A stretch of 64,000 nt of DNA from Lachnospiraceae bacterium (GTDB taxonomy: Bacteria > Bacillota > Clostridia > Lachnospirales > Lachnospiraceae), in assembly GCA_022792535.1 (NCBI GenBank), contig JAAWBG010000057.1, positions 1 to 64,000 on the forward strand. The letters are read 5' to 3'. Below the pieces are notes generated by a model. The model did no database searches and had not been told where the DNA came from. It saw only the letters and a list, made by a program, of their open reading frames with translations. A program made the position numbers and the translations under genes. The first letter of the stretch is position 1, and each line of letters starts with the position of its first letter. This document shows positions 22,714 through 26,038 of the stretch, in pieces.

Positions 22714-24654
22714 TTACTGAAGCAGTGACAATACTCCCTGTGTAGACTGGTTTGCCTGTGCCAGCATAGACTGACCTGCCTGTGCAAGAATATTGTTTTT
22801 GCTGTATTCCACCATCTCGGAAGCCATATCGGTATCACGGATACGGGATTCTGCCGCTGTGGTATTTTCAACAACGTTATCCAGGTTCGCAATGGTGTGC
22901 TCTAATCTGTTCTGAACTGCGCCAAGAGCGGAACGCTGTGCAGATACTTTCGCAATAGCGTCTGCAATGGCATCAATTGCATAAGTTGCAGAATTTCCAC
23001 TGTCATCTGATACATTCAAACCTTTCACGCCAAGTCCTGCCGCATCCATAGCGTCAATGTCAACGGTAATCTTGTTGGTCATATCTGCGTCTGATCCCAC
23101 GTGAAGATTGAAGGATAAGGATTCTTTTACTTCAACAGTACCCTGTGTGATTGTGAACTTTCCATCTCCGTCGTTTGTTACTGTAGCTGCAACGTCTGTT
23201 CCAATACTGGAAGCTTTCTGCAATTCATCTGTGATCATGGAATATGCCTGTTTTGCACTGATCACTTTTTCATTGCTTTCTGGCAATGCGATATCGCCAA
23301 TAACGGTTTTAGCTCCTCCACCATTTACATCAACTGTGTCGCCATCATGGATTTTTGCTAATATGGCGTCCTTTGTCAGCTTAAAAGCCGCTTCATCCAC
23401 ATCTGCTTCATCTGCAATTGTATAGGTGATTGCATCTACGCCAGTTCCCACTTTTACGGTATCGCCAGCAGCTAAAGCATCAATTGCATCATAAATATCT
23501 TTCGCACTTGCCGGATCAGCTGCTGTCGCCTTTGTGGTAACGCCGCCAATAGTAACGCTGTCGCCTGTAGAGAAAACTGCACCTGTAGTGCCCCCTGTGT
23601 TTGCCCCAGCCTTAGCAAGTGTTTCTGAGTCTTTATTTTTCAACTGAGCAGAGCTTATCTCTCCTTTTTCCAAAGAAGCTACGATGATTGTTGAAGTAGT
23701 AATTGCTGTATCTGCTGGATTAGCAGACGCTTTGTCTGTAACATCTGTATGGAATTTACTACTTGTAACTTGTTTTCCATCAGCCAATGCAGAATCAATT
23801 ACTTTTTGCAGGTCACCTACCGTATATTCATCATTAGCTGTATTTGTAGCGGCAGCTACCTTATATACTTTTTCTCCAATCTTGACTTCATCACCAGTCG
23901 CCCAATTGATATCACTGGCAGCAATTTTATCCGTTAAAGTATAAGTATTTCCACCAAATGTTACACTGTCGCCTGCATTTAAAGTAGTTGTTTTAAAAAG
24001 TGCATCTGTAGCCACTTTATACCCATCTGTAGAAGTATTCAATTCTCCAGCTTCCAGATGATTTTCAGATGTTCCGATGGTATACTCTTTTCCGCCGATT
24101 GTAACCTTGTCGCCATTTTCCAAGGCTTTTTCCAGTTCAAAGGTAGAAGTTCCGCCGCCTTTGTCTGCAAGCGTTCCCTTAATGCCTGCATCATGTGCTG
24201 CAACCGTCTGGGTTTTTGTAGCGCCGCCCTTATCGCCTTTCAGCAGATAAATCTCATTGAATTTTGTGGTCTCAGCCACACGGTCAATTTCTGTAGTCAG
24301 CTGATCAATCTCTGCCTGGATTGCATCACGATCGGATTCAGAGTTTGTTCCATTGGCAGCCTGTGTCGCCAGTTCATTCATACGCTGCAGCATGGAATGT
24401 ACTTCTGTCAAAGCGCCTTCTGCAGTCTGCACTGCGGAAACTCCGTCTTCTGCATTGGTGGAAGCACGATCTAATCCGCGGATCTGTTTTCTCATTTTTT
24501 CTGAAATTGTCAGACCTGCCGCATCGTCTGCCGCACGGTTAATCCGATAACCAGAAGATAATTTTTCAGATGATTTTGCCTGAGCGCCTGTGGTGATTCC
24601 TAACATTCTGTTAGAGTTCATTGCTGTTAAGTTGTGTTGTACTACCATTGCCAT
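22714..24654 (-). CDS. hag: Flagellin with long repeat-rich variable domain
   Basis: The 646-residue product is the filament subunit. The N-terminal D0/D1 (VVQHNLTAMNSNRMLG to about residue 160, with LSSGYRINRAADDAAGL) and the C-terminal D1/D0 (NRLEHTIANLDNVVENT, ending in QSTQGVLSLLQ) are intact. The middle of about 360 residues holds at least six variants of a GDxVxIGGxxYTI-like motif (GDKVTIGGKEYTI, GDSVTFGGNTYTL, GDEVKIGEKVYKV and others), so the surface domain is itself repetitive. It is about twice as long as minimal Firmicute flagellins. The start is the ATG at 24654, with AAGGAGG upstream; the frame continues another 81 codons without a ribosome site. The leader carries a CsrA-type hairpin. 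No other flagellar structural gene is nearby. Confidence 0.95.
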   Translation of the reverse strand: MAMVVQHNLTAMNSNRMLGITTGAQAKSSEKLSSGYRINRAADDAAGLTISEKMRKQIRGLDRASTNAEDGVSAVQTAEGALTEVHSMLQRMNELATQAANGTNSESDRDAIQAEIDQLTTEIDRVAETTKFNEIYLLKGDKGGATKTQTVAAHDAGIKGTLADKGGGTSTFELEKALENGDKVTIGGKEYTIGTSENHLEAGELNTSTDGYKVATDALFKTTTLNAGDSVTFGGNTYTLTDKIAASDINWATGDEVKIGEKVYKVAAATNTANDEYTVGDLQKVIDSALADGKQVTSSKFHTDVTDKASANPADTAITTSTIIVASLEKGEISSAQLKNKDSETLAKAGANTGGTTGAVFSTGDSVTIGGVTTKATAADPASAKDIYDAIDALAAGDTVKVGTGVDAITYTIADEADVDEAAFKLTKDAILAKIHDGDTVDVNGGGAKTVIGDIALPESNEKVISAKQAYSMITDELQKASSIGTDVAATVTNDGDGKFTITQGTVEVKESLSFNLHVGSDADMTNKITVDIDAMDAAGLGVKGLNVSDDSGNSATYAIDAIADAIAKVSAQRSALGAVQNRLEHTIANLDNVVENTTAAESRIRDTDMASEMVEYSKNNILAQAGQSMLAQANQSTQGVLSLLQ

Positions 24655-24661
24655 AATTTTT

Positions 24662-24751: not shown

Positions 24752-25048
24752 TTACTTCTCCTGTGCTGCCTGTTCCTCTCGGCGGGCTTTCTTCCGCTCT
24801 GCCATAAGAATTGCACGTATCTTCTCTTTTGCCTCCGGCGAAAGTTCCCTGTCTTTGTAGTGTCTGACCTCATTGCCTGGATCTGCCGCCATTCCATAAC
24901 GCTCCAAAGCCTGGCTTCGGACTATGTTATAAGACTTTGGCGCATCCACCAGAATCCGCAGATTATGAGAGCTGCCCCCAGTAAATACGACCTTGATGTC
25001 ATTGCCGATCAAAACATATTCTCCTGGCTTTACCGATAATTTAAGCAT
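24752..25048 (-). CDS. csrA: CsrA RNA-binding regulator with charged C-terminal extension
   Basis: The 98-residue protein has the CsrA fold signature in its first 50 residues (MLKLSVKPGEYVLIGNDIKV, then LRILVDAPKSYNIVRSQALE), including the conserved Arg near the end of the core. CsrA dimers bind GGA-loop hairpins and block translation; in Firmicutes the main target is flagellin mRNA, with FliW as antagonist. The usual length is 60-75 residues. Here an extra 35-residue Lys/Arg/Glu-rich tail follows. The ATG at 25048 has AGGAGG six bases upstream, preferred over the GTG at 25051. It precedes flagellin by 97 bp on the same strand. No fliW is found in the window. Confidence 0.85.
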   Translation of the reverse strand: MLKLSVKPGEYVLIGNDIKVVFTGGSSHNLRILVDAPKSYNIVRSQALERYGMAADPGNEVRHYKDRELSPEAKEKIRAILMAERKKARREEQAAQEK

Positions 25049-25106: not shown

Positions 25107-25112
25107 TATAAT
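25107..25112 (+). promoter_or_regulatory. Extended -10 promoter candidate of the recombinase
   Basis: TATAAT preceded by TGG forms an extended -10 without a clear -35. It lies 70 bp outside the left inverted site, so inversion of the bracketed segment would separate the recombinase from it. Confidence 0.45.
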
Positions 25113-25182
25113 AAAAATCTGTTACTGTAAAAATTTTCCAGATCCTAAGCTTTGCAAAAGGAAAGATTGATTAAAACTTTTA

Positions 25183-25207
25183 CAACATTTCTTACAAAAA
25201 TGTTGCA
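25183..25207. repeat. Left inverted palindromic site of the recombinase element
   Basis: CAACATTT and AAATGTTG flank the seven-base spacer CTTACAA, followed by CA. The same 25 bases occur in reverse complement at 25889-25913. Eight-base arms around a seven-base asymmetric spacer fit a tyrosine recombinase core site. It is located 26 bp upstream of the recombinase start codon. Confidence 0.8.
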
Positions 25208-25232
25208 GAACAGTGATACGGAGGAACGAAAC

Positions 25233-25811
25233 ATGGGAACTACGCAACCGATTCGGGAAAAAGACGAACTAAAGAAATTTTTGAATTATTATCAGGATCT
25301 TCATCCAAACCTTAGAAATTACACATTGACGGTATTCGGCCTGAATACCGCGCTTCGCATCAGCGATATTTTGAATCTAAATTGGGAAGACGTGTATGAT
25401 TTCAAGCAAAATTGTTTTCGGGAACATTTATTTATCCGAGAAGGAAAGACAGGAAAACAGAATATTATTGCGCTGAATCAGCATCTGACAGAAACGTTAG
25501 CGCTTTATATGAAAACACGCGCGCCTCTTCCTCAAGACTATATTTTTACGAAAACCACCGATTACACCACGCCATTAAGCCGCTCTCAGGCATTCCGCAT
25601 TATGAAACGGGCAGCGGAAGAGACGCTGCATCAGTCTCACATCAGCTGCCATTCTCTTCGCAAGACCTTTGGCTATCATGCCTGGAAACAAGGGGTTCCC
25701 CCTGCCCTTCTCATGGATATTTTCAATCATTCTTCTTACCGCGTAACAAAAAAGTATCTTGGAATTGATCAAGATGAACGAGATTCTATTTTTATGAGAA
25801 TTGACTTTTAA
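25233..25811 (+). CDS. Minimal tyrosine recombinase / integrase
   Basis: The 192-residue protein is essentially a bare catalytic domain. The full active-site set is visible: Arg in NTALRISDIL, Lys in GKTGKQNI, His and Arg in HSLRKTFGYH, a second His in FNHSSYRVT and the nucleophilic Tyr in KKYLGID. It lacks the larger SAM-like core-binding domain of XerC/D or phage integrases, having only about 35 residues before the first strand. The ATG at 25233 follows a strong CGGAGG; a TTG at 25152 would force translation through the inverted site and is less likely. Identical 25-bp palindromes in inverted orientation bracket it (25183-25207 and 25889-25913). It is divergent from csrA-flagellin. Possible roles are an inversion switch or a small mobile element. 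Confidence 0.85.
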   Translation: MGTTQPIREKDELKKFLNYYQDLHPNLRNYTLTVFGLNTALRISDILNLNWEDVYDFKQNCFREHLFIREGKTGKQNIIALNQHLTETLALYMKTRAPLPQDYIFTKTTDYTTPLSRSQAFRIMKRAAEETLHQSHISCHSLRKTFGYHAWKQGVPPALLMDIFNHSSYRVTKKYLGIDQDERDSIFMRIDF

Positions 25812-25883
25812 AAAGTTTTTAAAAAACATGAAAAAAAGTCTAAAGTTTTTTAGACTGATTCCGATATAGAAAGTGTAACAAAT

Positions 25884-25920
25884 AAAAATGCAACATTTTT
25901 GTAAGAAATGTTGCATTTTT
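25884..25920. repeat. Right inverted palindromic site, also a possible terminator
   Basis: Fifteen-base perfect arms (25884-25898 and 25906-25920) flank the spacer TTGTAAG. The inner 25 bases are the exact reverse complement of the left site. On the plus strand the arm ends in TTTTT, so it could also end recombinase transcription. Confidence 0.8.
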
Positions 25921-26038
25921 GTTATTAATTTTGCTGTGAATTTTTTATTATTCTATCTATTTTTAAATTATCTCCAAAACAAATTTGGTTATTCCCGTAT
26001 CAGCGACATATTCCTTTTGCACGAGTGCGCATATTATT

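Follow-up and report, generated by a model that had tools for sequence, protein, structure and literature searches.

In Escherichia coli, FimB and FimE are short tyrosine invertases of about 200 aa that flip a promoter; their genes lie outside the invertible segment, fimS, which controls fimbriae. The Hin/fljBA system of Salmonella is arranged differently, as there the invertible segment carries both the flagellin promoter and the recombinase gene (see also PMC9368917), and Hin is a serine recombinase (PMC3798978, excerpt). For the gut clostridium C. difficile, published work describes a flagellar switch, Cdi4, in which the tyrosine recombinase RecV acts on inverted repeats and makes flagella phase-variable (PMC5903667, PMC7446863, PMC8890394, PMC5386303). 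That switch sits upstream of the flgB operon, and RecV acts on further switches too, according to PMC5903667. Among the open-access matches listed in our literature search, which turned up the switches of C. difficile, Salmonella and E. coli, no paper dealt with inversion of a flagellin promoter in Lachnospiraceae; some of the loci described below may be listed in the supplementary tables of large inverton surveys.

The stretch of DNA analysed here, 64,000 nucleotides from a Lachnospiraceae bacterium and called the window in what follows, contains a 0.7-kb segment next to a csrA-flagellin pair (Table 1). We consider it highly probable, from the comparison of many such loci, that the segment at 25183-25913 is an invertible sigma-28 promoter cassette with its own recombinase, which switches csrA-flagellin. 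All the features that the initial annotation had listed, a 192-residue recombinase between identical inverted 25-bp sites beside csrA-hag, are present, and the 8-bp arms around an asymmetric 7-bp spacer that it described can be read in both copies of the site (CAACATTT-CTTACAA-AAATGTTG). The two copies are 100% complementary over 25 nt, with 681 nt between them, and csrA and hag are divergent from the recombinase gene. The 23-bp core of the site has no copy in the genome beyond these two, with up to 3 mismatches allowed. What the initial annotation did not contain is the likely switching element itself, the predicted sigma-28 promoter at 25841-25867.

Table 1. Features of the predicted cassette and its csrA-flagellin neighbour (positions in the window).
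Feature	Position	Strand	Remarks
Flagellin (hag)	22714..24657	-	long flagellin, 647 aa; presumed controlled surface antigen
csrA	24752..25048	-	PF02599, 1.7e-15; first gene of presumed csrA-hag operon
TATAAT	25107..25112	+	possible -10 of recombinase promoter, outside segment; not conserved
Putative recombination site, csrA-proximal	25183..25207	+	8-7-8 palindrome, exact inverted repeat, conserved at homologous loci
Tyrosine recombinase	25233..25811	+	192 aa, ATG at 25233
Predicted sigma-28 promoter	25841..25867	+	TAAA-N15-TCCGATAT, 11/12 consensus positions
Predicted intrinsic terminator	25881..25923	+	distal site and flanks, T-rich end
Putative recombination site, csrA-distal	25889..25913	-	inverted copy of proximal site

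In a profile search the recombinase matches Phage_integrase (PF00589) with E=4.1e-28 and 98.7 bits against a curated cut-off of 27.1, and this is the sole Pfam family reported for it. It spans positions 98-260 of the 263-position XerA model and, judged by this alignment, is the catalytic domain alone, without the N-terminal core-binding domain. R42, K72, H140, R143, H166 and Y175, which we take to be the catalytic residues, do not vary among 39 aligned recombinases, a set that includes the protein of the window and extends down to 49% identity; profile score and the R-K-H-x-x-R-H-Y set together place the enzyme in the tyrosine recombinase / phage integrase family. The NCBIfam models for a ‘tyrosine-type DNA invertase’, NF007370 and NF007371 (presumably FimB and FimE), scored 39 and 43.9 bits, against cut-offs of 221 and 222. 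An AlphaFold2 model with a mean pLDDT of 75.5, poor from about residue 131 onward, compares with XerA, lambda Int and Cre at a TM score of about 0.5-0.6 of the query, its last quarter entering at low confidence. At three related loci (L067, L068 and L069) the reading frame of the recombinase is broken in two, with the site and the promoter retained, and there the switch is possibly frozen in one state.

Homologous loci were collected by searches with the recombinase protein. Among 61 genomes, 57 gave hits at E≤0.001, and many weaker hits were ordinary longer recombinases; at E≤1e-20 a search of the genus had matches in 24 of 29 genomes; from a search of named genomes, 80 of 171 confirmed loci were retained. 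Seventeen entries (L003-L006, L154-L159 and L190-L196) were excluded from the count by name, being context, duplicate or own-genome stretches. The recombinase match was better than 1e-20 at 178 loci, 156 of which remained once identical recombinase DNA had been dropped. At 111 of these 156 unique loci csrA or a flagellin gene starts within 3.5 kb of the recombinase, and at 105 of the 111 a sigma-28 match adjoins a palindromic site; the six others (L127, L029, L048, L167, L172 and L178) have csrA or hag without such a promoter-site pair. The remaining 45 loci showed no csrA or hag within 3.5 kb in the sequence examined, a proximity count that may be too low because flanks were often just 1.5 kb long or ended at contig ends. 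Four loci (L097, L183, L107 and L129) failed the pairing rule for sites, so that 101 of the 105 entered the statistics. By its predicted parts the kit is thus recognisable next to the flagellin genes of many gut-dwelling relatives, in most cases with a target sequence of its own.

The predicted promoter lies inside the segment, between the stop codon of the recombinase gene and the distal site, and in the orientation of the window it faces away from csrA-hag and straight into the distal site, an arrangement termed OFF. The distal site and its flanks fold into an RNA hairpin with a predicted energy of -20.2 kcal/mol (z -7.0); the proximal site, read toward csrA, gives a weaker hairpin (-10.5) without a T-run. 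The homologous loci are alike in this respect: the 8 nt that follow the site contain at least five T at 89 of 101 distal sites and, reading csrA-ward, at 6 of 101 proximal ones. A sigma-28 score of at least 10/12 occurs within 75 nt inside the distal site at 85 of 101 loci and in 0.36% of shuffles, and since the loci had been chosen partly for such a promoter, the less biased figure is the 105 of 111 given above, obtained with a looser score. At the other site none of the 101 loci reached 10/12. The gap from the -10 element to the start of the site ranges from 14 to 39 bp (median 20, 5th-95th percentile 16-25 bp), the segment between the sites from 125 to 2495 bp (median 753), and across seven orthologues conservation is highest in the promoter and in the distal site. 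On the strength of the sigma-28 match, the arrangement that characterises an inverton, a promoter between inverted repeats beside the controlled gene, is predicted at 101 loci.

The genome encodes the sigma factor FliA (265 bits, above the curated cut-off) and has five further Flagellin_N matches beyond the hag of the window. For the three of these five other flagellin genes that were examined, the best sigma-28 scores within 400 nt upstream were 11, 10 and 9 of 12. With the segment in its present orientation, the csrA-hag pair of the window has no recognisable sigma-28 promoter. None of 97 OFF loci had a csrA-ward match of at least 10 in a fixed stretch that is short (median 56 nt), and in the csrA-hag gap such matches were found at 2 of 95 loci. 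A sigma-A promoter driving csrA-hag is possible.

From these arrangements we infer that the enzyme acts at the sites, that transcription starts at the promoter and is terminated, and that a strain can switch back and forth; the proposed sequence of events is as follows. Strand exchange by the recombinase, inside the 7-bp spacers of the inverted site pair, would flip the segment. In the OFF state the sigma-28 promoter would fire out of the segment and into a terminator that the distal site forms; after inversion it would, from the coordinates, stand about 180 nt upstream of csrA and be aimed at it, behind the weaker hairpin without T-run, and csrA-flagellin would be expressed (ON). A different control loop had been proposed initially, in which inversion severs the recombinase from a promoter at 25107 and thereby limits itself. 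The TATAAT hexamer on which this was based is indeed there; it was not reported by the promoter scan, however, and is not conserved in six orthologues, so that the self-limiting loop finds no backing in conservation. Nor can such a loop be general, because at 6 of 105 loci (L079, L080, L040, L041, L025 and L052) the recombinase gene is outside the segment, and what stands between the sites is the promoter stretch alone.

The sites were also compared within and between loci. Over 26-28 bp, the paired sites of one locus differ on average by 2.2 positions at the 101 homologous loci. As partner sites had been picked as the best match, the control used the identical search, and when the site of another locus was sought in the same window the mean difference was 9.1; the repeats are therefore far beyond chance. 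The 7-bp spacers were identical within the locus at 78 of 79 loci and in 1.7% of comparisons between loci, the distal sites of the 101 loci having 64 different spacers. Mismatches between paired sites fall almost solely in the arms while the spacer is kept identical, a pattern that strand exchange within the spacer demands. The initial annotation had suggested a search for similar recombinases flanked by such sites, and paired sites are what was found, with the qualification that their spacers are mostly locus-specific and not one common sequence. Contig ends were also looked at as a proxy for mixed orientation: of 57 listed by hand, 49 have a site in the sequence examined, in 45 cases within 3 kb and in three within 60 bp.

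The repeats might instead be a mere terminator at the distal end and an operator or autoregulatory site at the proximal end, with the recombinase a domesticated regulator or active elsewhere. The strong terminator fold of the distal site is in line with this, palindromes close to promoters can be operators, and one orientation predominates (100 of 105 loci, see below). Neither role, however, needs an asymmetric spacer that is identical within a locus and variable between loci, the presumed catalytic residues are kept in all 39 aligned recombinases, and scattered species carry the whole segment in inverted form, so that we regard this explanation as highly improbable. The alternative raised at the outset, a terminator and an operator and nothing more, is thus partly true, the distal site being terminator-like too; the spacer pattern speaks against ‘nothing more’.

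A comparison of orientation in related genomes had also been proposed, and both orientations exist: the promoter points away from the nearest csrA or flagellin gene at 100 of 105 loci (OFF) and toward it at five (ON; L082, L107, L110, L152 and L129). Across species, both states expected of an inverton therefore occur in natural genomes. On a quick tree of the 105 recombinases, which is of moderate support (of 102 inner branches, 26 are starred and 38 open), five changes are needed to account for the five ON loci, or at least four when starred branches alone are counted; these loci are scattered singly, as dispersed as shuffled labels. The direction of the recombinase relative to the promoter needs two changes, and two changes against five for ON/OFF indicate that the segment flips as one block. 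L107 (ON) and four OFF loci, L118, L124, L137 and L139, are the closest relatives of opposite state, and in their alignment the segment is collinear between the sites, the csrA-hag flank is reversed, and the switch point is at the site. As the L107 flank opposite csrA has no match in the alignment with these four, just one junction is mapped. The sites of L107, which the automatic procedure mis-paired and so scored as a seventh locus with an outside recombinase, were paired by eye; their spacer, TATAACA, is identical at both ends, and the csrA-side half of the proximal site is degenerate.

The excess of OFF loci suggests that switching may be rare or biased, and one could go further and assume an inverter that was once active and is now mostly locked, its orientations being inherited and flipped rarely over evolution, without a working phase switch. 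The closest ON/OFF pair has 78% identity in recombinase DNA (ungapped), so that the inversions observed are between species, and ON is known solely at that level; together with the strong OFF bias and the relatives that keep sites and promoter beside a split recombinase frame, this speaks for locking. Yet every ON locus is isolated among OFF relatives, and identical spacers at 78 of 79 loci, along with catalytic residues present in all 39 proteins, suggest that recombination continues. We thus judge a locked inverter to be unlikely. The simplest account of the comparisons is that Lachnospiraceae have an active and self-contained switch for the phase variation of flagellin, with OFF as the common state in assemblies, and the original proposal, that an invertible segment could make flagellin phase-variable, gains strong comparative support from the counts of loci, the spacers and the two orientations.

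Several loci deviate from the common plan. At L103 (L103:2286-6371), from one metagenome-assembled genome (MAG), the segment is flanked by two divergent genes for full-length flagellins of 492 and 491 aa that share 79% identity, the promoter faces one of them, and the distal site is without a T-run. The locus was scored OFF by its nearest flagellin, though the promoter faces the other. The sequence outside its two sites is 90% identical over 457 bp. Inversion would here select the other flagellin, giving a Hin-like alternator with a tyrosine recombinase. Another genome (G018) has six cassettes, all OFF, with five distinct 7-bp spacers and one 6-bp spacer similar to another.

The presence of several copies in some genomes, and the patchy distribution of the recombinase family (30 of 397 genomes in a family-wide search at E≤1e-40, own genome counted), could be taken to mean that the segment is a small mobile element with the inverted repeats as its ends. 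We find this hardly credible, as csrA or flagellin is nearby at 111 of 156 loci, the distance from promoter to site is near-constant, and the sites at the six loci mentioned above enclose a promoter stretch without a recombinase.

Two loci, L043 (genome G022) and L047 (G024), have a like recombinase, site and promoter beside genes for predicted secreted proteins and not csrA-hag. Their sites are of the TGTAACC type, and the sigma-28 matches score 11-12/12. On one side, one locus has an Ig-like Big_2 domain and its counterpart a transglutaminase-like match below threshold; on the opposite side is a polysaccharide deacetylase with choline-binding repeats. In two Acetatifactor MAGs (L129 and L148) promoter and site are more than 1 kb from the recombinase, and the promoter of L129 faces a flagellin gene. 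The partner site of both was absent from the sequence examined, so the segment may be large. A second csrA-hag locus in the genome of the window has its proximal site on its own contig and the partner, of the same 27-bp sequence, on another (G000:C71:6949-6975 (L194) / G000:C11:1113-1139 (L195)). The contig with the partner site also has the paralogous recombinase and a 9/12 sigma-28 match; both pieces are near a common palindromic intergenic repeat, and either the region has been rearranged or its invertible segment is very large.

We also considered whether the promoter in its OFF direction serves a gene beyond the distal site. As a general role this was rejected: at 98 OFF loci, the first open reading frame of at least 100 aa past the distal site is on the strand of the promoter in 35 cases and on the opposite one in 56, while 7 loci have no such frame. 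At 25 of the 98, such a frame on the same strand starts within 300 bp of the site, so that the OFF direction need not be silent everywhere, and at a minority of loci the promoter could serve the distal gene if termination leaks. L103, where that gene is a flagellin, is the clear case.

Lachnospiraceae flagellins are known immune targets in the gut. If they are phase-variable, the flagellin displayed, motility and the host response would differ between cells of one clone, and none of these would be readable from gene presence. Neville 2013 (PMC3720852) reports that for three fliC genes of Roseburia and Eubacterium no promoter was found; promoter inversion might account for flagellin genes such as these where promoter searches failed. 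Since the sites are short and their spacers private, recombinases and sites could in addition make up a set of orthogonal pairs. Going beyond single loci, we lean somewhat toward the idea that Lachnospiraceae have a modular, privately keyed flagellin repertoire, with several csrA-flagellin cassettes per genome each flipped solely by its own recombinase at its own spacer, so that a clone would be a combinatorial flagellin mixture; rewiring in some species would let the module switch between two flagellins or control secreted proteins of another kind.

Each of the known switches shares part of this design. With FimB and FimE the cassette has in common a short tyrosine recombinase paired with a predicted promoter flip, but its enzyme matches the corresponding invertase models far below cut-off, its recombinase is usually inside the segment and not outside as at fimS, and its target is flagellin instead of fimbriae. 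As in Hin/fljBA, a flagellin promoter is predicted on the invertible segment and the recombinase gene is inside, and L103 could alternate two flagellins. Unlike the serine recombinase Hin, however, the enzyme matches the tyrosine family Phage_integrase alone and is not of the Hin type, and in L103 a single promoter could directly serve either flagellin. The flagellar switch of C. difficile, as described in the papers cited above, is similar in combining a tyrosine recombinase, inverted repeats and a flagellar target in a gut clostridium. It differs from the Lachnospiraceae cassette, which would flip a sigma-28 promoter onto one flagellin operon, and RecV differs from a recombinase that is usually inside its segment at loci that usually have their own spacer. 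We conclude that the cassette, as reconstructed here from its sequence, would work like fimS, Hin and the C. difficile flagellar switch, yet is a member of none of these systems.
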